From a virus: 50,978 nt of DNA. This document shows, piece by piece, positions 1,808 to 50,978 of this stretch; positions within the stretch are counted from its first letter, which is position 1; each line of letters opens with the position of its first letter. The notes beneath the pieces were generated by a model. It did no database searches. It saw only the letters and a list, made by a program, of their open reading frames with translations, and had not been told where the DNA came from. A program made the position numbers and the translations under genes. Location: the IMG/VR virus record IMGVR_UViG_3300050821_003418, positions 1 through 50,978 of that record; one strand, written 5' to 3'.

Positions 1808-3379
1808 CTAGAGGCCGTCTGTCTTATACGGAATGTCTGTTATGACGGTAGCGATGGTCAAGAACATGCCAGCGAGGTGGACAGAGTTCTGGAGACCCTG
1901 CTTCTCAACGAGAACTGGGTCGATTATTCCACGGCCAACAAGGTCCTTCTTATATTCTCCAGAATCGGTATCGAATCCATCGTGCTGGTTAAACTTGGTG
2001 TTATCAACAACAGCGCCAGAGTTCGTCACAAGGAGAGCCGACGGCATATCGCAAGCCTTCATAAGGACCTCTGAGCCTCCATTGCCTACAGTATTATGTA
2101 TCTGGCGGCCGATGTCCCTAAGAGTGATGCCGCCACCAGCGACATACCCTTCGGCAATCGCAGCTTTAACGGCGAAGACGGCATCCTCAATCTTCATGCG
2201 GAGATAGGGTATCTCAGCGTCAGATTCGGCTCCAACCTTGATGACAACGACTGAACCAGTGATGCGGGCAAGGCGGTCCTCAGTGTGGCGCTTCTCATCT
2301 CCCTTTGCTTCTCTAAGTACAGTCTTCAGCTCTTCGACACGGACATTGTGGTACGACTTCTCGGTGTCGGTCCTGTCTCCCTTAACGAAGAGGGTCTTGT
2401 CCTTTGAGGCGACGACCTTACGGACACGGACACAATCATTCATGGACAGGCCACGGACTGAGCGCTCTCCAGTGACAGCTTCTTTGCGGCCACAGAATAC
2501 AGCGAGGTCCTCAAGGAAATCAACTTTGCGGGGAGCTTTGACTCCGATAGCCAAGAAGCGTCCCTTCATGCGGCTGTTGTTCATAACCATGTTGGCAAGA
2601 GCCTCACCCTGGATGTCCTTTCCGACGATGACGAGGCCAGTACCTCCGGCCTTAAACAGCTCCTCACAGAGGGGCAGGATGTCCTTATTGACGCTAAAGG
2701 TCTTATCGGACACGAGGACATAAGCGTTATCAAGGACACTCTCTTGTCTCTCAGGATTAGTGACAAAGTATGGGGACATATAGCCGCCTTCGATTTCCAT
2801 ACCCTCAATCTTTTCCTTCTCAATCCTGATTCCCTGGCTCTCCTCAACGACGACACGGCCAGTCTCACCAGCCTCTCTAACGGACAAGGCAACGAGCTTG
2901 GCGATGTCTTCATTCTCGGAGCTTATCTTAGCAATCTTCAAAAGCTCAGCATCGTCCTTTATAAGAACAGCTCTCTCTGAGAGAAGTTTCAGAGCGTCCT
3001 TTAGAGAATGGTCCAATTCGTTCCTAAGCTGCATTGGTGAGTATTCTGAGTGAGCATCGAGAAAGTCCTGACCATACTTGATGAGGCTATAGGCCAAGAT
3101 AGTAGCCGTCGTGGTTCCGTCTCCAGCGTTCTCATTAGTCCTCTCGGCAGCTTCCTTTATAAGGTCAGCACCCATCCTTTCTACATCATCTTCAGGGAGA
3201 ATCTGGCGGGCGATGGATACTCCATCATTCGTAATCAAAGGGTTCTCCCAGCGGCGATAGACGGCGTTCCTACCGCGAGAGCCAAGAGTCGAAGCTACAG
3301 CCTTATATACAGTCTCCATTCCGATAAAGAGCTTCTGGCGGGCCTCAGCTCCGAACAGGGTTTTGGTTCTTTTAAGCAT
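1808..3379 (-). CDS. groEL: GroEL-type chaperonin (Cpn60), phage-encoded
   Basis: A 523-aa group I chaperonin, which folds proteins in an ATP-driven double-ring cage with a GroES lid. The nucleotide site is intact: ITNDGVSIAR places Asp at residue 52 and NAGDGTTTAT places Asp at residue 87, the same numbers as in E. coli GroEL. KIEDAV keeps the hydrolytic Asp near residue 390-400, and VAGGG is present. The apical domain keeps GGYMSPYF, DILPL and QGEALA, the regions that bind substrate and GroES. It is shorter than E. coli GroEL (548 aa), has a reduced segment after VKAP, and lacks the C-terminal Gly-Gly-Met tail. It sits between terminase and portal, suggesting a role in folding capsid or portal subunits. 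A GroES-like partner is encoded at 25964-26260. The start overlaps the end of the upstream gene by 8 bases. Confidence 0.97.
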   Translation of the reverse strand: MLKRTKTLFGAEARQKLFIGMETVYKAVASTLGSRGRNAVYRRWENPLITNDGVSIARQILPEDDVERMGADLIKEAAERTNENAGDGTTTATILAYSLIKYGQDFLDAHSEYSPMQLRNELDHSLKDALKLLSERAVLIKDDAELLKIAKISSENEDIAKLVALSVREAGETGRVVVEESQGIRIEKEKIEGMEIEGGYMSPYFVTNPERQESVLDNAYVLVSDKTFSVNKDILPLCEELFKAGGTGLVIVGKDIQGEALANMVMNNSRMKGRFLAIGVKAPRKVDFLEDLAVFCGRKEAVTGERSVRGLSMNDCVRVRKVVASKDKTLFVKGDRTDTEKSYHNVRVEELKTVLREAKGDEKRHTEDRLARITGSVVVIKVGAESDAEIPYLRMKIEDAVFAVKAAIAEGYVAGGGITLRDIGRQIHNTVGNGGSEVLMKACDMPSALLVTNSGAVVDNTKFNQHDGFDTDSGEYKKDLVGRGIIDPVLVEKQGLQNSVHLAGMFLTIATVITDIPYKTDGL

Positions 3380-3692: not shown

Positions 3693-5299
3693 ATACGCAT
3701 ATAACGCATTAACTGGTTAGTAAGGTTACGCCCCTCCTCTGTCCTTGGTTCGTTCCTCTGAAGCCTAAGCACCCTTGGTAGATTACAAGCGCCGTTCTCG
3801 AAGGCGCATCTAAAATCTGAGATTTCAGGGTCATGCACTGGTTTCAGGACTGATTGGACCGAGGTTGGAGCGACGACATTCGAGTAGCGGGAGTTCATCA
3901 GTGCATCATAGAGTTCCATCACCGAGTCTGAGTCTTTATTGAACACTGTCATCGGGAGTATCTGGATAACAGCGCGGCGGCGTGGCTCGTAGGTCGTGGC
4001 GTAGCTATTATAAAGTAGCCTGATACCGTATTTGAGGAGTCCATCGGCGCAGCTTCTATTGGTTGGCATGGTCTTGGAGAAGTGAGCCTGCTCTCCGAAC
4101 CAAGCCTTTGGCTTCTGCCACTTCTTTATCTTTTCGAGGAGCTTCTTCTGGTACTCGGTCCTATAGGCGTCTGGGTCATAATTTATCTCAGGATTCATAA
4201 ATGGGGCATACCAGTCTATATCCTTGTTCTTATTGGAGTAGCACTCGATGACATTGAATGAGGCCCCATTGTACTGCCACCAGACGAGGACAGTCAGGTC
4301 TCCACGCCCTATATCCATTGATATATAGACTGGGCGCTTCGGGTCATACTCAATCGACTCAACCTTGGCCTGGTCAATCTGTGGATAATACTGGCTCTTC
4401 TTGTCGATGGAGTAGGAGACAACGGCCTCACGGAGGACTTCGGGGTCGGCTTCGGCACGCTTCTGGAGTTGCTCGAACCACTCCTGGTCCTTCCACGGGT
4501 GGTCCTGCCAATCCAAGTGGATATAGTCTCCATTAGCTTCACACATATCTTTGAACTTCTCATACTGGCGACCTTGGCGGGAGGAGGAGACGAGAACCTT
4601 TACACGGGAGACCGACTCAAGAGAGCGCATGACCTGTAGGAAGTTCTCAATGAAGAAACACTCGTCTATAAAGGAGATAGAGTAGCGGCGTGAGCGGCCA
4701 GCGTTCTGGTTGGTAGAGCTACCATTGATAGAGGACTGGAGGAGGGGATTCAGTATCTTCAGGGACATATCGGTATTGGTTCCTTTCTTGCCTTTCGGGG
4801 TGAAGGACTCTGGAAAGAGGAACTCAGGGCACTTAGACATCAACCATCTAATCTTTCCGAAGATAGAGTTGTCAGGAGATGTCGAGCCATCATCGACCTC
4901 AGACTCAGTTCGAGAGAGAATAAATCCTGACCAATTGGCAGTAAAGAGCCAGCGCCAGAGGTAGTAGGCTGTAATGACCCAAGTGATTCCCATTTCACGG
5001 GGCTTGTCGATAAGGATAATATGCTCCTTAGTATCGTTTTCTGCTTCCAGAAGTTTAAAAATAATCCTCTTCTGGTAGTCAAACATGAAGAAAGGCTTAA
5101 TGGCATTTTGGTAGTTCGGTATCTTTAGGAATAAGAAAGTCTCGATGAACTCGATAGGGTCGGCGGCCCAGACATCGAGCATCATGCGGGCACGATGGAA
5201 ATCATCATCGGCGCAGTTCTTCATCTGCGTCATTCGGGCTATAAGCTTCTGCTTATACTCAGGGCTGTCGTAATACTGGGCGGCTTTCTTTAGGTTCAT
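3689..5299 (-). CDS. terL: Terminase large subunit (packaging ATPase and nuclease)
   Basis: A 536-aa motor protein that drives DNA into the prohead and cuts the concatemer. The N-terminal ATPase carries a viral-type Walker A, KPREMGITW at residues 99-107 (the RxMGxTW form). Walker B with its catalytic Glu is YSISFIDE at 206-213, and the coupling-type motif VLVSSS follows at about 235-240. The C-terminal RNase H-like nuclease begins at VYISMDIGRGDLT, with its first acidic residue at 329. The start overlaps the upstream terminase-like gene in an ATGA arrangement. Full length for the family. Confidence 0.95.
   Translation of the reverse strand: MNLKKAAQYYDSPEYKQKLIARMTQMKNCADDDFHRARMMLDVWAADPIEFIETFLFLKIPNYQNAIKPFFMFDYQKRIIFKLLEAENDTKEHIILIDKPREMGITWVITAYYLWRWLFTANWSGFILSRTESEVDDGSTSPDNSIFGKIRWLMSKCPEFLFPESFTPKGKKGTNTDMSLKILNPLLQSSINGSSTNQNAGRSRRYSISFIDECFFIENFLQVMRSLESVSRVKVLVSSSRQGRQYEKFKDMCEANGDYIHLDWQDHPWKDQEWFEQLQKRAEADPEVLREAVVSYSIDKKSQYYPQIDQAKVESIEYDPKRPVYISMDIGRGDLTVLVWWQYNGASFNVIECYSNKNKDIDWYAPFMNPEINYDPDAYRTEYQKKLLEKIKKWQKPKAWFGEQAHFSKTMPTNRSCADGLLKYGIRLLYNSYATTYEPRRRAVIQILPMTVFNKDSDSVMELYDALMNSRYSNVVAPTSVQSVLKPVHDPEISDFRCAFENGACNLPRVLRLQRNEPRTEEGRNLTNQLMRYMRI
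4380..4388 (-). other. Consensus DnaA box inside terL (probably incidental)
   Basis: TTATCCACA on the minus strand, encoding part of YYPQID in TerL. It has no promoter next to it, unlike the intergenic copies, so it is listed only for completeness of the motif set. Confidence 0.3.
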
Positions 5300-6060
5300 T
5301 CGTTTTCTTCGTTACGCTTCTGGCCGAAGTCGAGGAGGGCGGACTCTAGGTCTTCGCGGCTAGAGGCATTTATCTGGATGTTATTAAGGGTCCCGATGTT
5401 AGGCTTCCAGTTCTTATTCTTCTGCATCATGTCTATGATTTTGATGGAGAGCTGGAGCTTGTCCTTCGTGCCTAGTTCCTTGAGTTCGGTCTTCGAGAGG
5501 CCACGGGTCATAGTGACGAGGGCATCAGCGAGGAAGGTCTGGGCTTCGAGGATGCGGACCTGGGGGTCTTGGGGATTCATTATCGGACGTGCTCCAAGCT
5601 GGGGGCGGGTATCTGGGACGACGACTGGCACTCCCATCTTGGTATCTGCCATCTCATAGTGCTTCAGGCTCCAAGCGAGACGGGGGTTACCTTCAAGGAG
5701 GGGGCGCATCTTCTCTGTAACGACCGAGGGGTTAAGGCGGATGTACTGACCTACCTGACGGACGAGGGCCATAAACTTGTTCTTGAACTTCAGCGGTCCT
5801 CCAAGCGGGTCCGTCGAGAACACGTTGATGCGATAGAACAGCTCTTGGAGGAAAGGGAACGGACCTGAGAGGGCCTTTTGTTCCTGGGCGAGGATAGTTT
5901 CGGCGCGAAAGCGCAGGGTCTCACCCTCCATGAAGGCGCTGCACAGCTCAAAGAACTGGAGGTACTGGGCCTCGTTCCACTGGGAGACATCATAGCGGGA
6001 TGGTAGGTGGCCCGTTATGGCTCGGTACTTTGAAAGATTAGTTTGTTTCATGTAGTGCAA
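5296..6060 (-). CDS. Probable terminase small subunit or packaging accessory protein
   Basis: A 254-aa protein directly upstream of TerL and overlapping it by 4 bases. It is mostly helical and charged, with a C-terminal segment (LSKTELKELGTKDKLQLSIKI) resembling the oligomerisation part of small terminases. No clear helix-turn-helix was recognised near the N terminus. The role follows mainly from position. It could instead be another packaging-associated protein. Starting at the second Met (MKQTNLSK) would shorten it by three residues. Confidence 0.55.
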   Translation of the reverse strand: MHYMKQTNLSKYRAITGHLPSRYDVSQWNEAQYLQFFELCSAFMEGETLRFRAETILAQEQKALSGPFPFLQELFYRINVFSTDPLGGPLKFKNKFMALVRQVGQYIRLNPSVVTEKMRPLLEGNPRLAWSLKHYEMADTKMGVPVVVPDTRPQLGARPIMNPQDPQVRILEAQTFLADALVTMTRGLSKTELKELGTKDKLQLSIKIIDMMQKNKNWKPNIGTLNNIQINASSREDLESALLDFGQKRNEENE

Positions 6061-6310
6061 GCCACAGGTTAGCTACTGCCTCTTCTGGGGTTGAACCTTC
6101 GCCTTTAACAGACTCAGAGTGTTTGCTATTGTATGCGTACCAATACCCTTTAACATTGCAATGTAGATAGAAAGGTAAATCACACGCCTCTACAAGCTCG
6201 CTTAGAGAAGGGATAGTAAAACCATTGCTCCTGTCCCTAACCCACAGCTGATGGGGGTCTAGCTCAGGGAAACCAGCGTCCTTTAGTTGTTTAAGCAGCT
6301 TAGAGGTCAT
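6038..6310 (-). CDS. Conserved phage protein of unknown function
   Basis: A 90-aa protein with the pattern LKDAGFP, PSLSELVEAC and GSTPEEAVANLWLAL. I recall this arrangement from many phage and environmental genomes as a small hypothetical family. Its 3' end overlaps the next gene by 23 bases, and its start overlaps the stop of the upstream ribbon-helix-helix gene as ATGA. No catalytic motif is visible. Confidence 0.8.
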   Translation of the reverse strand: MTSKLLKQLKDAGFPELDPHQLWVRDRSNGFTIPSLSELVEACDLPFYLHCNVKGYWYAYNSKHSESVKGEGSTPEEAVANLWLALHETN

Positions 6311-6471
6311 TTGCCTTCATGGCTAGAGGTTCGAGGAGGAGTAAACGAATAGGCTTGGAGGGCATCGCGGACTATCTGGCTCATAGTCTGGTGGCGCTCC
6401 TCTGCCATCTTGTGTAGCAGGACCTCCGTATCAGGAGTCATAGAGATGGTCTTTCTGATAAAGTTAGCCAT
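6307..6471 (-). CDS. Ribbon-helix-helix DNA-binding protein, 54 aa
   Basis: This short gene encodes MANFIRKTISMTPDTEVLL followed by a helix ending MSQIVRDALQAY. A beta strand (KTISMT) and then two helices with a variable turn is the CopG/Arc/MetJ ribbon-helix-helix plan. Such proteins act as dimers that repress transcription, often their own. It overlaps its neighbours on both sides, so it belongs to the 6679-to-1808 operon. The substrate operator is not identified. Confidence 0.7.
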   Translation of the reverse strand: MANFIRKTISMTPDTEVLLHKMAEERHQTMSQIVRDALQAYSFTPPRTSSHEGK

Positions 6472-6679
6472 TGAGTGTGTCTGTTAGGACCTTGATGACC
6501 TCAGCCACAGTGGCCGCCACATACTCCTTATCCCTATAGCTAGTCGTGGAGCGGATGCGGATATGGTAGCCATTCTCAATCTGGCGGACGGAGATATCCT
6601 TCATATTTCCTATACCATAACCTGTGCTAGTAGTCGTATGTGAAGGTGCTGTCTGATTACCAAGTGGGTTTGGGTCCAT
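6464..6679 (-). CDS. Small hypothetical protein, first gene of the terminase operon
   Basis: A 71-aa protein whose C-terminal half (VRQIENGYHIRIRSTTSYRD) looks like a small beta-sheet domain. It overlaps the downstream ribbon-helix-helix gene by 8 bases. The upstream sequence ATTAACGCAATATACAC just before the ATG is almost the same as that before the gene at 7240, so the two share a leader type. The family is unknown. Confidence 0.6.
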   Translation of the reverse strand: MDPNPLGNQTAPSHTTTSTGYGIGNMKDISVRQIENGYHIRIRSTTSYRDKEYVAATVAEVIKVLTDTLNG

Positions 6680-6710
6680 GTGTATATTGCGTTAATATTT
6701 ATATACCCTA

Positions 6711-6719
6711 AGTATACCA
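6711..6719 (-). promoter_or_regulatory. Extended -10 promoter for the terminase/GroEL operon
   Basis: The minus strand reads TGGTATACT, an extended -10 box, about 31 bases upstream of the ATG at 6679. Transcription would begin near 6704, giving a leader of about 25 bases. It lies back-to-back with a plus-strand -10 at 6754-6759. Confidence 0.5.
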
Positions 6720-6750
6720 CACTTATGCACTGTTACTTACTTGTATGCAA

Positions 6751-6759
6751 TGGTATAGT
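6751..6759 (+). promoter_or_regulatory. Extended -10 promoter giving a leaderless start at 6766
   Basis: TGGTATAGT is followed by six bases (GGGGAG) and then ATG at 6766. The exact six-base spacing matches other leaderless starts in this genome, and it is the reason for choosing 6766 over the earlier ATG at 6745. Confidence 0.55.
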
Positions 6760-6765
6760 GGGGAG

Positions 6766-7005
6766 ATGAGATATAACTGGATGAAGGGATACAGGGCGCT
6801 GACTGGTAGGCATAAGGACCTGAAGAGGTGTCATGTCTGCAACGGGTACTGGGTCAAGCCCAATGGAACACTGGTATTAAATAACATACGCTACCGCATA
6901 TGTTATCCCTGCCGCCCACATGTCCTGGACAGACTGCATCGTGACTATATGGGATATAAGACGAGAGCGATATTCGGCCGCTGGGAGGGTCCGCCTATAC
7001 AGTAG
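6766..7005 (+). CDS. Zinc-ribbon-like small protein on the opposite strand
   Basis: A 79-aa basic protein with two CxxC knuckles (CHVC and CYPC) about 29 residues apart, a plausible single zinc site. It is a lone plus-strand gene embedded in the minus-strand early-left cluster and overlaps the convergent gene at 6995 by 11 bases. The zinc ribbon suggests nucleic-acid binding. An alternative start at 6745 adds seven residues, but it would lie upstream of the -10 box at 6754. Confidence 0.65.
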   Translation: MRYNWMKGYRALTGRHKDLKRCHVCNGYWVKPNGTLVLNNIRYRICYPCRPHVLDRLHRDYMGYKTRAIFGRWEGPPIQ

Positions 7006-7240
7006 GTTTGATGGTCTCGATGTAACAAGGCATACCATATACGATAGAAACATCGCCGCTTAGCATCTTAATGAAGATAACCATAGTTCCCTGCATACCG
7101 AAGAAGTCGTACCTTATCTCAGATACCTTACCCACCTTATTTGAAAGGCTAACCGACCCCGTTGTATAACCCCAATCATTAAGCCCCCCTTCAAGAAACA
7201 TCACCAAGCTGGCCTTATTCTTTGCGTTTTCTATATTCAT
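6995..7240 (-). CDS. Hypothetical beta-rich protein, 81 aa
   Basis: Beginning at MNIENAKNKA, the protein shows alternating hydrophobic strands (GTMVIFIKM, DVSIVYGMP), so a small beta fold is likely. The Met at 7240 is preferred over the one at 7273, because the latter lies inside the upstream gene and 7240 is preceded by the ATTAACGCAATA leader also found before 6679. No known family recognised. Confidence 0.6.
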   Translation of the reverse strand: MNIENAKNKASLVMFLEGGLNDWGYTTGSVSLSNKVGKVSEIRYDFFGMQGTMVIFIKMLSGDVSIVYGMPCYIETIKPTV

Positions 7241-7250
7241 GTGTATTGCG

Positions 7251-7442
7251 TTAATCGTACCTGATAATAACATCCTCCTTCGGAGCGAAGGGGTCCACCC
7301 ACGGCTTCTTAATGCTATTGGCTATCTCTCCTCCAAAGAGCTTACTGCGTATGTATTCTGAGACATTCCCGTCAGAAAGTTCACGCAGTGTGGTTAGTTC
7401 CTCCTCTGTTAAACGAATCTTAACTGTTTTGTCGTATTTCAT
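7251..7442 (-). CDS. Ribbon-helix-helix repressor, probably autoregulatory
   Basis: From the Met at 7442 the protein (63 aa) begins with the strand TVKIRLT, followed by EEELTTLRELSDGN and VSEYIRSKLFGG. This strand-helix-helix layout is the CopG-like ribbon-helix-helix fold, with a further 27-residue tail. It is the first gene of the minus-strand arm beside the control region. Its own promoter is embedded in three 22-bp-spaced direct repeats (7446-7502), the arrangement expected for a cooperative dimer repressing itself. An upstream in-frame Met would place the start inside those operators and is rejected. Confidence 0.75.
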   Translation of the reverse strand: MKYDKTVKIRLTEEELTTLRELSDGNVSEYIRSKLFGGEIANSIKKPWVDPFAPKEDVIIRYD

Positions 7443-7445
7443 AGT

Positions 7446-7502
7446 TGTGGGTACATTATAGCAAATCTGTGGGTACAAGTGCAAGGTTTTGTGGGTACAA
7501 GT
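7446..7502. promoter_or_regulatory. Three 22-bp-spaced direct repeats TGTGGGTACA (operator array)
   Basis: TGTGGGTACA occurs at 7446-7455, 7468-7477 and 7490-7499; the last two extend identically to TGTGGGTACAAGT. Start-to-start spacing is exactly 22 bp twice, two helical turns, so bound proteins would sit on one face. The array spans the -10, spacer and upstream side of the promoter for the ribbon-helix-helix gene at 7442. Confidence 0.75.
7455..7484 (-). promoter_or_regulatory. Sigma-70-type promoter of the left minus-strand arm
   Basis: On the minus strand: TTGCAC (7484-7479), 18-bp spacer ending TGC, TATAAT (7460-7455). The ATG at 7442 is 12 bases past the -10, so the leader is only about 5-6 bases with no ribosome binding site. 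The promoter is covered by the repeat array. Confidence 0.75.
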
Positions 7503-8025
7503 TGTACTCCGCGATATAGCGACGGGGGTGTTCAGGGAGGGAAAGAGCAGACCCTCATCCGATTCCCCACCCCTCTACCATTCATTAAAACGCTTAGACG
7601 TGGCCTAGCTTAGCCATATCATGCCATGCACCCGTAATAGAGTGGATATATTAGAACACATAGACGGATAGGTGAACACATGCACCACATAACAACATGC
7701 ACCACATAACATCTAAGTCTCTATGTCTCTTTGGTGCTGTATCTGGCGGCGCGATAGTCTATGGCTATGTATATGGCTATCACTAGCTACTGCTCATAGG
7801 GGCGTGCATGGGCGGCGGCGTTGGTGGTAGTGCCATACAGGGCTATAGGTGTACTGGTGTATGGTGTAGGCGGCGCAACTGTACCCCATTATAATGGTGA
7901 AAGACTTTCGAGGGGAAAGTTAACAAAGTTCATTTATATAGCTTGTTTGGTACTGAAACATGGCTTTGTTAAGCCATATTGACGATGTTAAGCCGTATAA
8001 TTGTGAATGAATACACATATGAGTG
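7503..8025. other. Divergent control region without a convincing gene
   Basis: A stretch of about 520 bp between the two arms. It contains a tandem 16-mer (ACATGCACCACATAAC at 7678-7693 and 7695-7710), the motif CTTTCGAGGGGAAAG (7905-7919), and two direct copies of TGTTAAGCCRTAT (7967-7979 and 7986-7998, 19 bp apart). TATAAT-like boxes also occur at about 7890 and 7995. The only open frames are short, Gly/Trp-rich and lack supporting signals. The pattern is that of a regulatory region controlling both arms. Confidence 0.6.
7905..7919. repeat. CTTTCGAGGGGAAAG motif, copy 1
   Basis: A CTTTC/GAAAG inverted repeat around a GAGGG centre, here flanked by A and T so the arms extend to six base pairs. 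The same 14-15-mer recurs at 8798, 22719 and 46624, with relatives at 14731, 18056 and 25742. Operator or RNA hairpin; see findings. Confidence 0.6.
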
Positions 8026-8053
8026 TTGCATTTAGTATTGGATATAGTATGAT
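8026..8053 (+). promoter_or_regulatory. Early promoter of the plus-strand arm
   Basis: TTGCAT (8026-8031), 16-bp spacer, TATGAT (8048-8053). It lies about 57 bases upstream of the first plus-strand gene and shares the TTGCAT -35 with the promoters at 9014 and 23065, but has no DnaA box. Confidence 0.55.
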
Positions 8054-8077
8054 GATACTAGAGCTAGGGACATTGAA

Positions 8078-8090
8078 AACTAGGGGGAAA
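8078..8090. repeat. AACTAGGGGGAAA, left arm of a distant inverted repeat
   Basis: The 13-mer at 8078-8090 is exactly the reverse complement of 8416-8428. The two arms bracket the first two small plus-strand genes. The GGGGAAA core relates it to the CTTTCGAGGGGAAAG family. Confidence 0.5.
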
Positions 8091-8109
8091 TAACATAACA
8101 AAAAATAAC

Positions 8110-8301
8110 ATGACGAAAAAGGACTTTATTACCGTGTCAGCAGTTATCAAGAGATTCATGCCAAAGGTTGGCGAGCCGGACTACGAGGCCGGACAAGGGA
8201 CAACAGCGGGAGATATAGCTAGAGCTTTGGCTACAGAGTTCGCCTCAATCAATCCACGCTTTGATTATAAGAGGTTTTACGAGGCTTGCGGCCTCAAATA
8301 G
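8110..8301 (+). CDS. Small hypothetical protein, first gene of the early arm
   Basis: A 63-aa soluble protein (ITVSAVIKRFMP, then GDIARALATEFASINPRFD). It is helical, has no signal peptide, and ends with a Cys-containing tail. It follows the promoter at 8026, and the start context is A-rich (AAAAATAACATG) with no Shine-Dalgarno. The pattern resembles small phage proteins of unknown function. Confidence 0.7.
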   Translation: MTKKDFITVSAVIKRFMPKVGEPDYEAGQGTTAGDIARALATEFASINPRFDYKRFYEACGLK

Positions 8302-8302
8302 C

Positions 8303-8398
8303 ATGGACGAGCACATGACGGGCAAACAAAAGATAGGCATGGGCATACTGGCGACAATTGTAGTCGTAGGATTCTGCCTTATCGGGTACATAGGATAG
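8303..8398 (+). CDS. 31-aa single-pass membrane protein
   Basis: A short polar head (MDEHMTGKQKIG) followed by one hydrophobic helix (MGILATIVVVGFCLIGYIG). It starts one base after the preceding stop. Tiny membrane proteins of this kind recur through the early arm. Function unknown; host-envelope takeover or exclusion proteins are the usual guess. Confidence 0.5.
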   Translation: MDEHMTGKQKIGMGILATIVVVGFCLIGYIG

Positions 8399-8415
8399 GT
8401 TTCACTTTAATCACT

Positions 8416-8428
8416 TTCCCCCTAGTTA
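8416..8428. repeat. TTTCCCCCTAGTT, right arm of the inverted repeat
   Basis: Exact reverse complement of 8078-8090, located in the gap after the 31-aa membrane protein gene. Confidence 0.5.
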
Positions 8429-8499
8429 TCAGCGTGTCGAACGCTGTAGCACTTTAACAATCCGGCATTAACACGGCGTGAGCCGTATCAAATCATCAT

Positions 8500-8674
8500 A
8501 TGAAAACAGTATCAACCAAGCTATACGAGTACAGCGAGCTATCAAAGGAGGCGCAAGCTAGAGAAGTTCGGCTACGAAATGATAGAGTACGAACAGAGCG
8601 AGCAGGCTTTCATAGAGACTTGCGAGGCCAACGAGTACACCTTTGAGGCTAGCGGAGTAATGAGAAACGCATAA
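8500..8674 (+). pseudogene. Collapsed, frameshifted remnant of a phage YEYSEL-type protein
   Basis: The ATG frame begins MKTVSTKLYEYSELSKEAQA, the typical N terminus of a phage family I recall as about 130-160 aa long. The next frame (+1) encodes the family's C terminus (YEMIEYEQSEQAFIE, then ANEYTFEASG) and ends at TAA 8672-8674. The whole middle is missing and the two ends join out of frame, so the original frame stops early at TGA. An internal deletion is the simplest reading. A functional mini-protein or programmed shift is possible but unsupported. Confidence 0.6.
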
Positions 8675-8679
8675 CCGCC

Positions 8680-8952
8680 ATGCTTAAAATCTATTCAACG
8701 CTAGCAGAGTTCAGGGCGCGAGTTATCGCAAGCTATCCTATCAAGGGGCATACGAGAAAGATTAAGGGCAAGAACGCATATAAAGTTGTGAGCTTTCCTT
8801 TCGAGGGGAAAGTGGAAGAAATAAAATACTATGACGCCAAGAAACAAAAGTGCGAAATAGTGCTACCGCCCTTGTTTGATGACGCTGGTAATAGGATTAT
8901 AGGTCAAGGCTACGATTCTATCAGTGGGCAAGTAGTGAACATAATCGAGTAG
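8680..8952 (+). CDS. Hypothetical protein, 90 aa
   Basis: A soluble, Lys-rich alpha/beta-looking protein (KIYSTLAEFRARVIASYPIKG, then IVLPPLFDDAGN). It follows the remnant gene by 5 bases and is closed by a good terminator. Bases 8798-8812 within it spell CTTTCGAGGGGAAAG, encoding PFEGK. No family recognised. Confidence 0.65.
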   Translation: MLKIYSTLAEFRARVIASYPIKGHTRKIKGKNAYKVVSFPFEGKVEEIKYYDAKKQKCEIVLPPLFDDAGNRIIGQGYDSISGQVVNIIE

Positions 8953-8960
8953 AACATTCT

Positions 8961-8985
8961 AGGCCCCATTAGGGGCCTTTAGTGT
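8961..8985 (+). terminator. Rho-independent terminator
   Basis: AGGCCCC (8961-8967) pairs with GGGGCCT (8972-8978) across an ATTA loop, followed by TTAGTGTT. It separates the first early transcript from the promoter at 9014. Confidence 0.75.
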
Positions 8986-8992
8986 TATTGAG

Positions 8993-9042
8993 TTATCCAC
9001 AGTATAAATAGGCTTGCATTAAGTAGTGGAATTATGTATACT
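8993..9042 (+). promoter_or_regulatory. DnaA-box promoter module of the amidoligase operon
   Basis: A consensus DnaA box TTATCCACA (8993-9001) sits 12 bases upstream of TTGCAT (9014-9019). A 17-bp spacer and TATACT (9037-9042) follow. This is a near-consensus sigma-70 promoter that would drive 9080-14730. The same box-promoter layout occurs at 14757, 23047 and 26408, and in part at 18075. Confidence 0.8.
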
Positions 9043-9079
9043 GTATTCAGGTCGATAACGCCTATCAATGAATTAACAG

Positions 9080-9163
9080 ATGACACACTTAATTATAAAT
9101 CACCCTGTGGCGGCGTGGCTCGTAGGAGCAATGATAAGCGCCCTTACAGGGCTAACGAGATAA
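9080..9163 (+). CDS. 27-aa hydrophobic peptide
   Basis: A very short frame (MTHLIINHPVAAWLVGAMIS plus seven residues) ending 7 bases before the next gene. It is hydrophobic enough for one membrane helix. It could be a real tiny membrane protein or an upstream peptide. It is supported only by spacing and by the many similar tiny genes nearby. Confidence 0.35.
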   Translation: MTHLIINHPVAAWLVGAMISALTGLTR

Positions 9164-9170
9164 CAATACA

Positions 9171-9392
9171 ATGGACAAGATAATCGCTAAGGCACAGGAG
9201 GCAGTAAAAAAGGAGTTTGAAAACAGGAGAGAGTCCCATATCATCACAGAGCTTTCAAGGATAGAAAATTACAAAGCAGACTGGAACAAGACAGAAGAGA
9301 GGATAGCCAAAATGCAAACTTTCATAGAGGAGATAGCCAAGTGTAAAAACCAAACAGAGCTTAACAATGTTATTAACAGCCGCAACTTCTAA
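9171..9392 (+). CDS. Small coiled-coil protein, 73 aa
   Basis: Almost entirely charged helix (EAVKKEFENRRESHIITELS, then TEERIAKMQTFIEEIAKC), so a dimeric coiled coil is likely. It begins after AACAATACA with no Shine-Dalgarno and is followed by the next gene after one base. Function unknown; the first confident protein of the amidoligase transcript. Confidence 0.7.
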   Translation: MDKIIAKAQEAVKKEFENRRESHIITELSRIENYKADWNKTEERIAKMQTFIEEIAKCKNQTELNNVINSRNF

Positions 9393-9393
9393 C

Positions 9394-9558
9394 ATGACAC
9401 GCAACATCATAGCGGCTCTTATATTCAGAGCCAAGAAAGCAGGAAACTATTTTGTGAGCTACCGCAATGAGCTGTACTCGCTTGATGAGCTTCTTTCGCT
9501 TCTTACGGGTCGAGAGGTCGAGTTCGCAGAGGCCGAGACATTTCTAAAGCACGCTTAA
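9394..9558 (+). CDS. Hypothetical protein, 54 aa
   Basis: Starts MTRNIIAALIFRAKKAGNYF, then YSLDELLSLLTG. The Met at 9394 is chosen over one at 9367 because that lies inside the preceding gene and 9394 follows its stop by one base. The layout resembles small phage modifier proteins, but no family is recognised. Confidence 0.6.
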   Translation: MTRNIIAALIFRAKKAGNYFVSYRNELYSLDELLSLLTGREVEFAEAETFLKHA

Positions 9559-9573
9559 TATAGAGATAAAGCT

Positions 9574-9744
9574 ATGACTAGCATACCACTAGACACAATG
9601 GAGGAGATAGCATACTTGCGGACTTGCGCCGCGAAAGAAGGTCGCTTGCTTCCCCCATTGCCGGACTGTTCGGCCCCGTGGTGCTCGTCATGCAATTACT
9701 ATCGCAAGTGGTGGGCCGACAAAGGTATCATAATTAAAAGATAA
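9574..9744 (+). CDS. Cys-rich small protein, 56 aa
   Basis: Four cysteines, three of them in DCSAPWCSSC (CxxxxCxxC) plus Cys18, followed by an aromatic, basic tail (NYYRKWWADK). A zinc-binding mini-domain is likely. It immediately precedes the first amidoligase (9 bases) and is in the same transcript. A role as partner or substrate of those enzymes is possible but purely speculative. Confidence 0.55.
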   Translation: MTSIPLDTMEEIAYLRTCAAKEGRLLPPLPDCSAPWCSSCNYYRKWWADKGIIIKR

Positions 9745-9753
9745 TTAAACACA

Positions 9754-10698
9754 ATGTACGACAACATTAGCAGAGAATGGTACGAGGTCGCTAGGCTCTT
9801 GTCAAAAGAGAAAGGCGAGATACTTCAATCTGTACGCAAGTTCGGCATAGAGGTCGAGTGTCAGTATCCAGCATGGGGGGCGGCCGTCAAGGCGTCTACG
9901 GAGATAGACAAGGCCATAGGCATAGGAACCGATGGAAGCGTGAACGGCAACGGCCAAGAGCTACGCCTACCGCCAGCGTCAGGCAAGGCGGCAGAGGCGA
10001 TGATAAAGGAGCTTAGCGCCTCACTCAAAAAGAATGACTACACGACAGACAATTCATGCGGCCTCCATGTCCATATAGACGGGGCGGATATGATGGACAA
10101 GTGCAACAACACGACAGACGGCTATAAGCTCTTTCAGACATACTGGCTCACATACATAGCGATAGATAGCGTCATACGCTCATTCCTGCCGTCTCACAGG
10201 CTCCGCAATACCTTTTGCTATCCTATGGACAAGTGCTTTGAGGCGGTCAAGGCGGCGGACAGCTATAGCACTCTTGACATGATATACAGGTCGGATAACA
10301 AGCAGTGGCTAGACAAAGGCAAGAAGCGAGGACGCAAGGACGACTCACGCTACAAGGGTATCAACCTGTACTCGTTCCTTAGAGCTGGACACCCTGAAAT
10401 CAGGTATCACAACGGCACGATAGACGGGGAGCATATGCTCGCATGGGCAAACCTCCATTGCCTTATCATGGACAAGGTTATGGACGGCACGATAACGGCA
10501 GAGTGGGCGGTCGAGATGAACAGCACGAGGAGCGTAGCAACTAAGACCAAGTGCCTGTTCGACAAGATAGGACTGAAAAAGAGGAGCAGGACATACTTCA
10601 AGGCAAGACAGTACAAGTTTTACAGGCCGTATTCTATCCTGTTTTCAAGCTCCACAATCATGTCAAAGGTAAGGGAATTATCAGGAAGTAATCATTAA
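9754..10698 (+). CDS. Amidoligase 1 (glutamine-synthetase-fold carboxylate-amine ligase)
   Basis: A 314-aa protein of the Amidoligase_2-like family. It would couple ATP hydrolysis to formation of an amide or peptide bond between a carboxylate and an amine. Visible family motifs in order: FGIEVEC (30-36, first metal-binding acidic residues), GTDGSV (58-63), QELRLPP (68-74), CGLHVHID (102-109) and HPEIRYHNGTID (213-224, active-site Arg). It is close to the minimal length of the catalytic domain, with no added domains. The next gene, 6 bases away, encodes a class II glutamine amidotransferase that could supply ammonia or handle a glutamine-derived amide. A second amidoligase/amidotransferase pair follows directly. 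The substrate is unknown. Confidence 0.88.
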   Translation: MYDNISREWYEVARLLSKEKGEILQSVRKFGIEVECQYPAWGAAVKASTEIDKAIGIGTDGSVNGNGQELRLPPASGKAAEAMIKELSASLKKNDYTTDNSCGLHVHIDGADMMDKCNNTTDGYKLFQTYWLTYIAIDSVIRSFLPSHRLRNTFCYPMDKCFEAVKAADSYSTLDMIYRSDNKQWLDKGKKRGRKDDSRYKGINLYSFLRAGHPEIRYHNGTIDGEHMLAWANLHCLIMDKVMDGTITAEWAVEMNSTRSVATKTKCLFDKIGLKKRSRTYFKARQYKFYRPYSILFSSSTIMSKVRELSGSNH

Positions 10699-10704
10699 AA
10701 CCAT

Positions 10705-11724
10705 ATGTGCGGCATTGTACACGGTCGAATGTTAAATAAGGGGGAAGATGTCAGGGGCGAGATAGCTAAGACATACTTCAAGCAGAGAGGCCGAGGCACA
10801 GAGGGGTTTGGCTTTGTGGCCCTCATGCACGGAAAAATCGTAGAGTATGCCCGTGCAGAGAGCGAGCAAGCTATCATGGCAAAGATGAAGACAACGCCTT
10901 GCGATGAGATGATGTTTCATCATCGCTACCCCACTTCAACGCCTAACTTTGCTGTGGCGGCGCACCCTATCGAAGTAAAAAATAAGGCGCTGGCGCATGA
11001 CTACTACATGGTGCATAACGGCGTCCTGTGGAATGACGATGAGCTTAGGGAGCAACACCTAAAGGACGGCTTCAAGTACACCACAGAGATGACGCAGGAG
11101 TGGAAGACCAAAAGGGGCCGCAAAGTGCAGGTTGAGACTAAGTTCAATGACAGCGAGGCTCTTGCCATAGAGCTTGCTAGGGACATAGACAACGAGGCCG
11201 AGGGCATACCACAGGTCAAGGGGTCGGTAGCTTTCATCATCTTGCAGGTCGAGAAGGCCACTAAGAACCCTGTAGCCCTTTACTGGGGCAGGAATAGCGG
11301 CTCGCCCCTTGTCATGGGTAGAGAGGGAGATAAAGCCTTTATGATTTCATCGGAGGGTGGCGGCGAGATAGTGCCGGTAGATAGGCTGTATCGCTATGAC
11401 TATGCGTCAGGCGACACGCTGGCCAAGAAGTATCCTATCGGCCCACAGGTATACGCTTCCAACGAGCTGTTTAATGTCCGCAAGAACCAAGACATAGACA
11501 TTGAAGACCCAGCCTTTCCTAAAGAGGAGGTATACAGCGAGGACGAGAATAACAAGATAGGGGAGCTGTGCATAGAGTGGGACGAGCTTCAGGCCACTAT
11601 GAATAGCGCAGAAGTCTTGCCAGCCGAGGAAGAGGACAGCATATACAAACGCCTGCTAGAGATTGATAGGGAGCTAGACGAGCTACAGCTCAAACATTAC
11701 CAGAGTAAACTTCTTAACGGATAA
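10705..11724 (+). CDS. Class II glutamine amidotransferase 1
   Basis: A 339-aa Ntn-hydrolase-type amidotransferase that would cleave glutamine to glutamate and ammonia. After removal of Met1, Cys2 (MCGIV) becomes the N-terminal nucleophile. HHRYPTST (72-79), AAHP (85-88) and HNG (104-106) are the family motifs for glutamine binding and the oxyanion hole. The last ~100 residues are acidic and helical (IYKRLLEIDRELDELQLKHY) with no synthetase domain attached, so the acceptor-side enzyme must be separate, most likely the neighbouring amidoligases. It starts 6 bases after amidoligase 1 and ends 3 bases before amidoligase 2. Confidence 0.9.
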   Translation: MCGIVHGRMLNKGEDVRGEIAKTYFKQRGRGTEGFGFVALMHGKIVEYARAESEQAIMAKMKTTPCDEMMFHHRYPTSTPNFAVAAHPIEVKNKALAHDYYMVHNGVLWNDDELREQHLKDGFKYTTEMTQEWKTKRGRKVQVETKFNDSEALAIELARDIDNEAEGIPQVKGSVAFIILQVEKATKNPVALYWGRNSGSPLVMGREGDKAFMISSEGGGEIVPVDRLYRYDYASGDTLAKKYPIGPQVYASNELFNVRKNQDIDIEDPAFPKEEVYSEDENNKIGELCIEWDELQATMNSAEVLPAEEEDSIYKRLLEIDRELDELQLKHYQSKLLNG

Positions 11725-11727
11725 ACC

Positions 11728-13212
11728 ATGCCTACACCAAGACCACAAGGAGAGTCGCCAGAAGCGAGACTAAACGAAATCTTCAGCTCCGCACAGGAGG
11801 CAATACGCCAAAATCGAGAGGACTACACAATAATACGGCCAGCGCCACAAATGCCTAGTCAAACGGCCCCTCCTTTCGTTGATTTTACCGACGATGAGGA
11901 GGAGAGTGAGCCTGTAGAGCTACACTGTTCATACTGTGGTACGCAACCAGCCGATGATTCAGAGTGGGACGACTTCAACTGGCTAGAGGGAGCGAATTGC
12001 CTTGCATGTAACGACTGTTACGCCCAGCGCACTTTTGTATGTCCTCAATGCTCTGATGTATTCCCTAATCATGCAGGCAGGAACACCGAGATGGTGGGTA
12101 TTGACCCGCGCACAGGCAAAAAAAGGACAACCTATGTATGCGAGAAATGCGCCCACGAGATATTCGAGTGTTGCGAGCATTGCGGGACGATGTACGGCAA
12201 GGATAGCAAGGAGTGGAAAGAGAGCATCAATGGATATTGCAAGAGGTGCGTCAAGAATTACTCCAATATAGACCATGTGCCTTGTCGAAACTATGAGGAG
12301 CCTACATACGAGGGCGACAATATCCCTAGTATCTTCACTTCAATGCGCCGATTCGGTATCGAGATAGAGGCTCATGCGGCAAAGCCAAGGGGCTGGGGCC
12401 TCGCATATATCATGCTTCCAAAAGAAGTAGGACTAGGCACGGATAGCTCGGTAGGAAACATGGGCGTGGAGTTCAGAACCGCGCCAATATCCGGCCGAGG
12501 GGCCGAGGAGACGATACAGAAGACCTGCAAGGTGTTGAACGACCTCAAGTACACAACGAGCAAGACTTGTGGCTTCCATATCCATGTGAGCGTCGAGGAC
12601 ATAGACAGCCAGAGTTCGGACTACGCTTTCAGTAATATGCGAGATTTGTGGCTCTTCTATCTCACTTTCGAGGATGTCATCTTGAGCTTCCTGCCGCCTT
12701 CACGCCGCAACAACTATCAGTATTGCGCCCCGCTCAAGACCGAGTACCACTTCAAGGAAGTTCACGACGCACAGAACATAGATGCCCTTGAGAAGCTCTG
12801 GTATAGGCTAGGCTCGACGGAGAGCGTAACGAGAGCTAAGAGCGAGCATAGGCACGCTTCACGCTACCGAGGCATCAATCTGCACCCGATGTTCTCTAGC
12901 AGGCACTTTGAGATTCGCTACCACTCCGGCACGCTCAATGCCCGCAAGATGCTGGAATGGACCAACCTACAGCTCAAGATTGTGGACACGATAATAACGA
13001 GAGGATTCAATATGAGCTGGGCCTTCCAAAACGCCTCCTCTACCAACATAGAAGAGAAGACGAGGGAGTTCTTCAAGTATCTCCAGCTCTCAAAGCCATC
13101 TGTCGCTTACTTCATGGCCCGCCAGCAAGCGTTCTACACTCCTCCTACGGTCGAAAAGGACGAGCACTACGAGATTGCCAAAGAATTACTAGATAACGAG
13201 AGAGAACATTAA
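11728..13212 (+). CDS. Amidoligase 2 with N-terminal zinc-finger region
   Basis: A 494-aa paralogue of amidoligase 1 with an added N-terminal half. Residues 1-60 are polar and probably flexible. Residues 67-174 hold a run of CxxC knuckles (C67/C70, C91/C94/C97, C105/C108, C138/C141, C149/C152, C171/C174), so several zinc ribbons that could bind protein or nucleic acid. The ligase domain then shows FGIEIEA (209-215), GTDSSV (237-242), VEFRTAP (247-253), CGFHIHV (281-287) and HFEIRYHSGTLN (393-404). The zinc module could recruit a macromolecular substrate, making this version the targeting enzyme of the pair. That is inference. Confidence 0.88.
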   Translation: MPTPRPQGESPEARLNEIFSSAQEAIRQNREDYTIIRPAPQMPSQTAPPFVDFTDDEEESEPVELHCSYCGTQPADDSEWDDFNWLEGANCLACNDCYAQRTFVCPQCSDVFPNHAGRNTEMVGIDPRTGKKRTTYVCEKCAHEIFECCEHCGTMYGKDSKEWKESINGYCKRCVKNYSNIDHVPCRNYEEPTYEGDNIPSIFTSMRRFGIEIEAHAAKPRGWGLAYIMLPKEVGLGTDSSVGNMGVEFRTAPISGRGAEETIQKTCKVLNDLKYTTSKTCGFHIHVSVEDIDSQSSDYAFSNMRDLWLFYLTFEDVILSFLPPSRRNNYQYCAPLKTEYHFKEVHDAQNIDALEKLWYRLGSTESVTRAKSEHRHASRYRGINLHPMFSSRHFEIRYHSGTLNARKMLEWTNLQLKIVDTIITRGFNMSWAFQNASSTNIEEKTREFFKYLQLSKPSVAYFMARQQAFYTPPTVEKDEHYEIAKELLDNEREH

Positions 13213-13217
13213 ACCCT

Positions 13218-14486
13218 ATGTGCGGAATCATCCTAGTAAGAAGATATGATGGCCTCTCAGCCCGCCGAATGGTGGAGAAGAGGTACAGGAAGCAGAAGAG
13301 CCGCGGGGTGGAAGGTTTTGGGCTGGCCGCAATCTCTGGCGGCAAGGTGGTGGACTACTACCGATGTGAGACTGAGAGCGACATCCTAAAGAGACTCCAC
13401 GAACAGAAGGGGGGCGAGATACTGATGCACCACAGGAAGCCGACGAGTACGCCTAACTTCTGGGAGACCGCTCACCCAATCTATATCGAACACGAGAGCC
13501 TGAAGCACGACTACATGATAGTCCATAATGGCGTCATACATAATGCCGACGAGCTTAGGAAGGAGCACGATAAGCTCAAGTTCGAGTATAAGACCGATGT
13601 CGTCCAGCAATGGATAACAAAGGGCAAGAAGGAGCGCGAGATTCTCAAGAAGTTCAACGACAGCGAGACATTTGCCATCGAGCTGGCGCGAGACTTAGAC
13701 GGCGAGCAGAAAGGCATAGACCATGTGACTGGCACGATAGCTTTCGTTGCCCTCAAACTAGAGAAAGGAGACAGTGGGGTAGTCTTGCAATCATTCTGGG
13801 GCCACAACTACGGCAATCCCCTCACCTTTGAGCAGAGCAAGTATCACTTCTGTGTCTCATCAGAGGGCGGCAAGGAAATCAAAGAGCACTTGCTGTTCAC
13901 CTATGACTACGCAAAGAACGACATAACCTTCAAAGAGTACCGCTTAGGACATCTCTTTACACCGACTGACGATAGGGCATCATCATACGGCGAATGGAAG
14001 AACGGTAAGTGGGTCAGGAAGACTGACGCCGAAAGAGAGGCGGAGAAGAAGGACAAAGAAGACAGCCATCGAGAAGTGGCAACAACCGAGATACCTAAAG
14101 CACCTATTGGCTTCACAGTTCCCAAAGAGGAAGTAAGCTTACTCCCAAAAACACCAGCTCAAGTGCTGTTCCCCGCACGCGTGGATGCCTTCATAGAGCA
14201 TCACGGCTTGAGCGGCTATGACGAGATGGACCCGATTGTAGACCTACAAAGGGCTAGCCCAGACATGAGCCAAGAGGATGTGCTTGATATTGTCCTTGAC
14301 CTACAGGCGGAGATGTCTAACCTAGAAGAGCAGATAGAGGGTGGAAAGATGGGTACGCCGTTCCGCATGTGGGCCACCGAGCGTCTTGCTTTCATAGATG
14401 AATACCTCGCAGAGGGACAGAAGATTATGAGAGAAAAGGTAGCGTCCAAAAAGGAGACGGTAGAGAACGAGAATTACGTCTGTTAA
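13218..14486 (+). CDS. Class II glutamine amidotransferase 2
   Basis: A 422-aa paralogue of the protein at 10705. It has Cys2 (MCGII), HHRKPTSTPN (71-80), TAHP (84-87) and HNG (103-105). Similarity to copy 1 extends through the GVEGFG and SSEGG segments. It has a longer C-terminal part: a Lys/Glu-rich linker (about 270-295), then a helical region with SGYDEMDPIVDLQRA and a final coiled-coil-like stretch. It starts 5 bases after amidoligase 2. The order ligase-amidotransferase twice in a row indicates tandem duplication followed by divergence. Confidence 0.9.
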   Translation: MCGIILVRRYDGLSARRMVEKRYRKQKSRGVEGFGLAAISGGKVVDYYRCETESDILKRLHEQKGGEILMHHRKPTSTPNFWETAHPIYIEHESLKHDYMIVHNGVIHNADELRKEHDKLKFEYKTDVVQQWITKGKKEREILKKFNDSETFAIELARDLDGEQKGIDHVTGTIAFVALKLEKGDSGVVLQSFWGHNYGNPLTFEQSKYHFCVSSEGGKEIKEHLLFTYDYAKNDITFKEYRLGHLFTPTDDRASSYGEWKNGKWVRKTDAEREAEKKDKEDSHREVATTEIPKAPIGFTVPKEEVSLLPKTPAQVLFPARVDAFIEHHGLSGYDEMDPIVDLQRASPDMSQEDVLDIVLDLQAEMSNLEEQIEGGKMGTPFRMWATERLAFIDEYLAEGQKIMREKVASKKETVENENYVC

Positions 14487-15190: not shown

Positions 15191-15370
15191 ATGACCCTTA
15201 CCGAAACACAGATACGAGAGATACCGACGCTCATCTTAGAGAAGACGGCGGGCCAGATAGCGGTCGAGTATGGCTGCCATGAAAGGACGATTAACAAGTG
15301 GGTTAAGAAGTTGCGAGCTTCTGGCATCGAGGTCAAGACCCGTGTAGGCCGCCGCCCAATAAAACTATGA
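15191..15370 (+). CDS. Helix-turn-helix protein, 59 aa
   Basis: TAGQIAVEYGCHERTINKWV at about residues 19-38 is a clear helix-turn-helix, followed by a basic tail (TRVGRRPIKL). Proteins of the same plan occur at 17924 and 25552 in this genome. It overlaps the next gene by 4 bases (ATGA). Likely a small regulator. Confidence 0.65.
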   Translation: MTLTETQIREIPTLILEKTAGQIAVEYGCHERTINKWVKKLRASGIEVKTRVGRRPIKL

Positions 15371-20989: not shown

Positions 20990-21455
20990 ACCAATCGAGG
21001 CCGCTTATAAGTATTGCTCAGATACGATTGCCCTAGTCTCCACCCTTGAGGAAGCATTTTTAACTCTCGGTGAGCGCCTAAAGAAAGTTAGAGACGAACA
21101 GTTGTATCTTCCGACCTATGATACCTTCCGAGACTTCCTTGAGGAGTGCCGCATGAAGGAAGGTACAGCGTCAAAATTGATTTCTGTGTACTCTACCTTT
21201 ATAGAGACCTACGAGATGTCTCCGACCGAGGTGGCCGCCGTAGGCTGGTCAGTCCTCTACGAGTCAATTCCGCTCATCAAGAGCAAGAAGGATGCGGTTG
21301 ATGTTGTCCATGAGCTATCCAACCGCCGCGACAAGGATGCAAGGGATTATGTTAGAGAGAAGCGTTCAGGCATCGACCAAGACAAATGTGCCCACGAAGA
21401 TGTTTACTCTATCCGCTGTTGCCGAACATGCGGACTTAAAATTAAAGACCTATGA
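20979..21455 (+). CDS. Hypothetical protein with C-terminal Cys cluster, 158 aa
   Basis: The helical N-terminal two thirds (FRDFLEECRMKEGTASKLIS) resemble phage DNA-associated regulators. Residues near the end, CAHEDVYSIRCCRTCG, form a likely zinc site (C, H, C and C within 20 residues). It overlaps the methyltransferase start by 4 bases, so it could serve with it as a specificity or control protein, though this is only positional. Confidence 0.65.
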   Translation: MSNKPIEAAYKYCSDTIALVSTLEEAFLTLGERLKKVRDEQLYLPTYDTFRDFLEECRMKEGTASKLISVYSTFIETYEMSPTEVAAVGWSVLYESIPLIKSKKDAVDVVHELSNRRDKDARDYVREKRSGIDQDKCAHEDVYSIRCCRTCGLKIKDL

Positions 21456-50410: not shown

Positions 50411-50978
50411 TTATTGTGGGGTTAGATTAGGCATTGCTGGCTGATTCATCTGGGGAGAGCCGAATGGGGTCGCTCCTTGGCCGCCATTAGACTGGCCTCC
50501 TACTTGCTGTCCCTGGACGGACTGTTGGAGATTACCCATTTGGGTTCCACGGGCCGCTCCAGGCATGGCGTTCACGAGCTGCTGGACTGGGTATCCTGAA
50601 CCCCAATCAGACATGAGCTGAGGGAGTATCTTGTTAGAGGCATAGTCGGCTGGGTGCTCTCCGAGGTTCTCCATGTGGCGTAGGAAGACCTTTGAGATGT
50701 CAGCGACTCCGGCAGGCACATAGGTCTGGAGCATAGGGCCGATGACTGTCTGGATGAACATAGCCTTCTTCATTTCCGAGGTCTCTTCAGGCTCAAGTTC
50801 GACATCCGAAATCTCGAACTCAAGGTTCTGGATGGTCTCGATGTCAGCCTCGATTATCTCAGACATCTTGCCGTTCTGTATAGACTCACGGATATTCTCA
50901 TAATAGAGTTCGAGGCCGCTCTTAGGCTTGGTGACGAAGCGAATCTTTATATCGCCGACACCGCCGAGAGAGAGCGGC
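50411..50978 (-). CDS. Portal protein, C-terminal part (continues at 1)
   Basis: The last ~172 codons of the portal gene beyond the junction (50411-50927) encode the C-terminal helices (KKAMFIQTVIGPMLQTYV, SDWGSGYPVQQLV) and a Gln/Gly-rich tail (GQQVGGQSNGGQGATP). Bases 50928-50978 repeat bases 1-51. Removing one copy gives an uninterrupted frame. Confidence 0.85.
   Translation of the reverse strand, partial: PLSLGGVGDIKIRFVTKPKSGLELYYENIRESIQNGKMSEIIEADIETIQNLEFEISDVELEPEETSEMKKAMFIQTVIGPMLQTYVPAGVADISKVFLRHMENLGEHPADYASNKILPQLMSDWGSGYPVQQLVNAMPGAARGTQMGNLQQSVQGQQVGGQSNGGQGATPFGSPQMNQPAMPNLTPQ
50928..50978. repeat. 51-bp terminal direct repeat, right copy
   Basis: Identical to bases 1-51; see the left copy. 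Confidence 0.95.

Follow-up and report, generated by a model that had tools for sequence, protein, structure and literature searches.

A doubled amidoligase-amidotransferase gene set in a phage genome, with a zinc block on one of the two ligases

Two amidoligases (LIG1, LIG2) and two class II glutamine amidotransferases (GAT1, GAT2) are encoded head to tail, in the order LIG1, GAT1, LIG2, GAT2, in a virus genome of 50,978 nucleotides (IMG/VR record IMGVR_UViG_3300050821_003418; the whole stretch is called the window below). In our view there is about an even chance that this quartet constitutes two paralogous glutamine-dependent amidating enzymes, each made of a ligase and a GAT, for different carboxylate targets. 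A single ligase-GAT pair is already known in phages, while the conserved doubled pair with its asymmetric zinc block is new. Indeed, a literature search found no description of a doubled ligase-GAT set with a zinc module on one copy.

Results

Organization of the quartet and its genome

An earlier note on this DNA had described two tandem amidoligase and class II GAT pairs separated by gaps of 3-6 bases. The spacers are 6, 3 and 5 bases, and matches to PF12224 and to PurF/GlmS models bear out the family assignments. All four open reading frames start with ATG at the positions given in that note. The features are as follows:

9754-10698, plus strand: LIG1, Amidoligase_2 (PF12224), 314 aa, without zinc block; ligase domain ~9820-10620
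10705-11724, plus strand: GAT1, class II glutamine amidotransferase (Ntn glutaminase), 339 aa; GAT domain ~10705-11442
11728-13212, plus strand: LIG2, zinc-block amidoligase, 494 aa; ligase domain ~12331-13134
11926-12249, plus strand: LIM-like zinc-binding block of LIG2 (residues 67-174), six CxxC (12 Cys)
13218-14486, plus strand: GAT2, class II glutamine amidotransferase, 422 aa; GAT domain ~13218-13949; helical C-terminal extension
15191-15370, plus strand: helix-turn-helix (HTH) protein, 59 aa, 60% identical to a protein downstream of the quartet in the related record L006

The record is likely a complete genome, since bases 1-51 are repeated at 50928-50978, as expected of a circular assembly. 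Matches of its terminase to T4-like and other phages are numerous but reach only ~25% identity. The minus strand carries the structural genes and the plus strand the quartet, in the company of small genes and of SSB-like, Cas4-like exonuclease, replication-initiator, DnaB-like helicase and methyltransferase genes. From this position among replication-type genes, expression of the quartet together with early genes may fairly be inferred. The four genes form a putative operon; a promoter scan of the window gave a modest excess (24 versus 15.7 by chance, sd 4.0), and a terminator scan gave a count no higher than chance. Both small ORFs that had been suggested as partners or substrates (9574 and 14491) do exist, but no recognisable relative of either was found near any related locus. 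Such a role is thus unsupported, and we rejected them as substrate candidates.

Both pairs retain family signatures and catalytic residues

LIG1 and LIG2 are 34-36% identical and clearly match the PF12224 profile (56.5 bits, E 4.8e-15, and 87.7 bits, E 1.5e-24, respectively; cut-off 22). A control search gave a match in 0 of 14 control genomes. All 33 aligned ligases, the two of the window among them, have the active-site elements ExE, D, E, HxH and ExR; in LIG2 numbering the invariant residues are E212, E214, D239, E248, HxH, Y380, E395 and R397. The earlier note had made its reading depend on an amidoligase match and on the acidic and Arg active-site residues, and both ligases have these intact. 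This conservation fits selection keeping both copies as enzymes. The predicted fold of LIG2 is that of the glutamine synthetase (GS) superfamily, to which all significant PDB fold matches of the model belong (E up to 0.001). Foldseek matches were YbdK (3e-5), glutamine synthetase (7e-4) and gamma-glutamylcysteine synthetase (3e-3), with low TM-scores (0.2-0.46). In this model the ligase domain has a pLDDT of ~90, while confidence in the zinc block is moderate.

The two GATs are 45% identical. With the GATase_6 profile GAT1 scored 26.0 bits, just under the cut-off of 27, and GAT2 27.1 bits. Both match PurF/GlmS models, at scores far below the equivalog cut-offs, and a PDB search with a profile of the GAT family picked up chains of PurF and GlmS (E 1e-7 to 1e-6). 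Both proteins begin with MCGI, so that the predicted nucleophile Cys2 directly follows Met1. Cys2 is present in 47 of 50 GATs, and the remaining three rows are gapped at this position. Apart from a few gapped rows, Arg74, Thr77, His87, Asn105-Gly106 and Asp149 (GAT1 numbering) are likewise kept. Partly from PDB profile alignments, we take these residues to be the equivalents of the glutamine-binding Arg, Thr and His, the oxyanion Asn-Gly and the Asp of GlmS. Hence the active-site motifs are retained in both members of each pair, as had been claimed. The GAT2 model superimposes on the GlmS glutaminase domain with a TM-score of 0.73-0.74 by target length (rmsd ~3.4 A). It is nearest in fold to the GlmS/PurF glutaminases (E 1e-10 to 5e-11), with EgtC farther away (E 2e-8).

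Two other functions were considered. A defence system has no support from PADLOC, whose anti-phage models gave no match over the enzyme domains and a weak one to the helical tail of GAT2 (E 9e-4). DNA hypermodification is not favoured, as a DNA methyltransferase at 21452 is the only base-modification gene among the annotated genes.

The same quartet occurs in a second phage

Neither LIG2 nor GAT1, used as a single-protein query, found anything in viral contigs, and a tblastn search of cultured phages with the GATs gave no match, whereas alignment queries succeeded. Alignment-guided scans showed the GAT family at 40 loci in viruses and at 5 in genome bins of bacteria or archaea. This survey covers GATs near the motif HHRxPTS, and some records are fragments, so that double sets that are less common or more diverged may have escaped it. 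In most loci the ligase ends a few bases before the GAT starts (median distance 4.5 bases). Within the survey, two ligases and two GATs per whole record were found only in the window, L006 (IMG/VR record 3300025316_000046) and L010. The gene-neighbourhood survey proposed in the earlier note thus recovered the same tandem quartet in one other of the 40 related virus records, L006. In L010 the two pairs are ~3 kb apart, and in L029 a single ligase accompanies two GATs.

In L006 the LIG1 orthologue lies at 5972-6907 (50.5% over 279 residues), followed by the GAT1 counterpart (6909-7898, 44%), the LIG2 orthologue (7900-9318) and the GAT2 counterpart (9318-10403, 49%). The two loci share the quartet order, the zinc block on LIG2 only and nearby cpn60-type and small HTH genes; the HTH protein at 15191-15370 is the one small downstream neighbour common to both quartets. 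They differ in that the proteins are 34-51% identical, and L006 is an uncharacterised metagenome record. That a second phage, at deep divergence, has conserved the quartet strengthens the case for a doubled system with divided roles.

Several neighbouring genes were noticed in these genomes. The window phage encodes a cpn60/GroEL-family chaperonin (1808-3379, minus strand; PF00118, 138 bits; phrog_5725), and a relative with ~26% identity is present in L006 (717-2177, minus strand). A ~95-aa protein with a GAxNxT...FEGYTI motif is encoded near several ligase-GAT loci (L006 4201-4479, L010 91-372, L008 and L019); no copy was found in the window. Upstream of the L006 quartet, the product of 5200-5688 looks by eye like a lytic transglycosylase (AESGLHQ...GYCQIN) and has no Pfam match.

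At 13 loci (L009, L021, L024, L025, L028, L031, L036, L037, L039, L040, L045, L047, L048) the ORF directly upstream of the GAT, for example L039:6316-8001, belongs to a second partner family without a Pfam amidoligase match. It carries the motifs ExE, DGSVDTE, AGMHI and EYRVF, often with DnaJ-like CxxCxGxG repeats between the ExE-like and DGS-like motifs. The family looks like a diverged GS-fold ligase; hhalign gave a probability of 84% in one comparison and 3% with a smaller alignment. In a KSB1 bin (L047, 164-10948) a ligase-GAT pair lies beside relaxase (TrwC), T4SS coupling-protein and tyrosine integrase genes, and in a Paceibacterota bin (L046, 3168-13991) a pair is found near coupling-protein and integrase genes. 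The module therefore seems to travel also on integrative conjugative elements, and its function is not tied to virions.

Duplication of the pair and fate of the zinc block

In the ligase tree the LIG1 proteins of the window and L006 phages group together (support 100/99), as do their LIG2 proteins (99/97), and all four form one clade (98/91). The nearest outgroup consists of zinc-block ligases from single-pair loci (L011, L013, L014, L015). Pairing of the ligases within each phage was rejected (p-AU 1.8e-6 and 5.7e-6), which together with the 36% ligase identity rules out a recent duplication. The four GATs also form one clade (98/93), without resolution of the order inside; a GAT1 clade across the two phages was not recovered, but such a clade was not rejected either (p-AU 0.20). 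Both halves of the unit are duplicated, as the GAT paralogues are 45% and the ligase paralogues 34-36% identical. The simplest account of the trees is a single duplication of the unit before the window and L006 phages parted, with both copies retained since. Neither the ligase tree nor the GAT tree places L010 as sister to the window/L006 clade. A separate origin of its second pair is therefore probable, with the caveat that its branches are long.

The block of LIG2 comprises six CxxC pairs, with none of the 12 cysteines changed in the L006 orthologue. It weakly matches LIM and DnaJ-type PDB profiles (E 0.002-0.04), and one similar viral protein is annotated as 'LIM domain containing'. In both the window and L006 the block is found on LIG2 and not on LIG1. 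The duplication suggested in the earlier note agrees with the pre-split duplication in the ligase tree. The zinc-finger block that it had seen on the second ligase is real, but is not special to the duplicate, as the six-CxxC block is also carried by the single-pair ligases of L011, L013, L014 and L015. Because these outgroup ligases bear the six CxxC pairs, LIG1 most likely lost the block. The presence of two unlike zinc modules (six CxxC; DnaJ-like CxxCxGxG) on GAT-partnered ligases suggests, by inference only, that they serve a docking role.

Discussion

We propose that each GAT would hydrolyse glutamine at its N-terminal cysteine and release ammonia. Each GS-fold ligase would activate a carboxylate with ATP as an acyl-phosphate, which the ammonia would turn into a carboxamide. 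An ancestral pair of a zinc-block ligase and a GAT was duplicated as a unit, and both copies have long been retained. Copy 1 most likely lost the block, which in copy 2 would persist as a module for docking the substrate, and the copies would serve different carboxylate targets. The quartet would probably be made with early genes and may serve to remodel a host macromolecule, a cell-wall peptide or a protein, during infection. Glutamine-dependent amidation of a carboxylate is most simply read from the locus, because a glutaminase and a GS-fold ligase adjoin without the extra ligases of phiEco32-type cassettes. A literature search found no biochemistry for the ligase-GAT family. Some amidoligases in Porphyromonas and Bacillus phages have no annotated GAT adjacent, and the ligase fold alone is therefore no proof of ammonia as donor. 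In a protein-directed form of this scheme, a protein of the host or the phage would be brought to LIG2-GAT2 by the LIM-like module, and LIG1-GAT1 would have another target for amidation. The two kinds of zinc module on GAT-partnered ligases point to protein docking, but we hold this form to be rather improbable. If true, altered side-chain charge would block host defence or superinfection.

In ergothioneine synthesis a gamma-glutamyl group is attached by EgtA and later removed by EgtC. By analogy, the ligases could attach the gamma-carboxyl of glutamate to an amine and a GAT-fold hydrolase could later cleave the bond, so that no ammonia donor would be involved. The GS-fold relatives of LIG2 include the gamma-glutamyl ligases YbdK and gamma-glutamylcysteine synthetase, GAT2 has EgtC as one of its fold matches, and a gamma-glutamyl cyclotransferase is found beside the pair in related phages. 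However, GAT2 is closer to GlmS/PurF than to EgtC in fold and profile, which makes ammonia donation the likelier of the two roles but does not decide between them, and the window and L006 loci lack a cyclotransferase; overall we consider protection and removal of this kind unlikely. Alternatively, the ligases could add amino acids or short peptides to carboxyl groups of the cell wall or of proteins, as has been proposed in print for phiEco32-type phage cassettes (PMC5498523; PMC10580990). The GATs would then be accessory amine suppliers or trimming enzymes. Many related loci additionally hold COOH-NH2_lig, ATP-grasp and cyclotransferase genes. Profiles built from L003, L004 and L008 found none of these three in the window; the L006 quartet is likewise without them, as are, by annotation, the Arthrobacter phage pairs, and we see little probability in peptide ligation here. 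Redundant copies, or a single four-protein complex carrying out one reaction with one ligase or GAT as a structural or regulatory partner, would suit the adjacent and co-oriented pairs of both phages, an arrangement fit for equal subunit expression. Yet all catalytic residues are kept in both copies, the zinc block differs between them and the L010 pairs are ~3 kb apart, which makes redundancy or a single complex quite doubtful.

The idea of a role in peptidoglycan modification and superinfection reportedly traces to Iyer et al. 2009. For cassettes of this kind it is a published hypothesis (PMC5498523; PMC10580990), and our literature search found no assay of peptidoglycan action by phiEco32-type cassettes. 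UFV-P2 encodes an amidoligase (ORF23), a GAT (ORF25) and an ATP-grasp protein (ORF28) (PMC3890496), and PSA-HP1 has a seven-gene cassette of phiEco32 type (PMC5498523). Like the window locus, the phiEco32/LUZ24/tf/RIO-1-type cassettes bring an Amidoligase_2 and a glutamine amidotransferase close together in early-type regions. In contrast, they have one such pair without doubling, and they include COOH-NH2 ligase, ATP-grasp and gamma-glutamyl cyclotransferase genes that the window locus lacks. The Arthrobacter phages Wheelbite (gp93-94) and Ottawa (gp65-66) have a ligase directly followed by a GAT with no other cassette enzymes annotated nearby, but as a single pair with one PF12224 match per genome; our GAT profile matched the Wheelbite GAT weakly (E 6e-4) and did not match that of Ottawa. 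Peptidoglycan amidation by MurT-GatD and AsnB/LtsA resembles the proposed reaction in that a glutaminase and ATP-dependent activation convert a carboxylate into an amide. However, MurT is related to the Mur ligases and works with a class I GAT, the domain found in LtsA/AsnB is of the asparagine-synthetase type, and neither system is known to use a GS-fold ligase, unlike the window pairs. MurT-GatD amidation is described in PMC3267633.

Ligase-GAT pairs are widespread, occurring in many phages and some conjugative elements, and the literature search found no established substrate. The two copies in the window and L006 are distinct through deep divergence and probably have at least two jobs. The doubled pair offers a built-in comparison of a zinc block present versus absent and, with only four genes, is a compact set to express and study by mass spectrometry.
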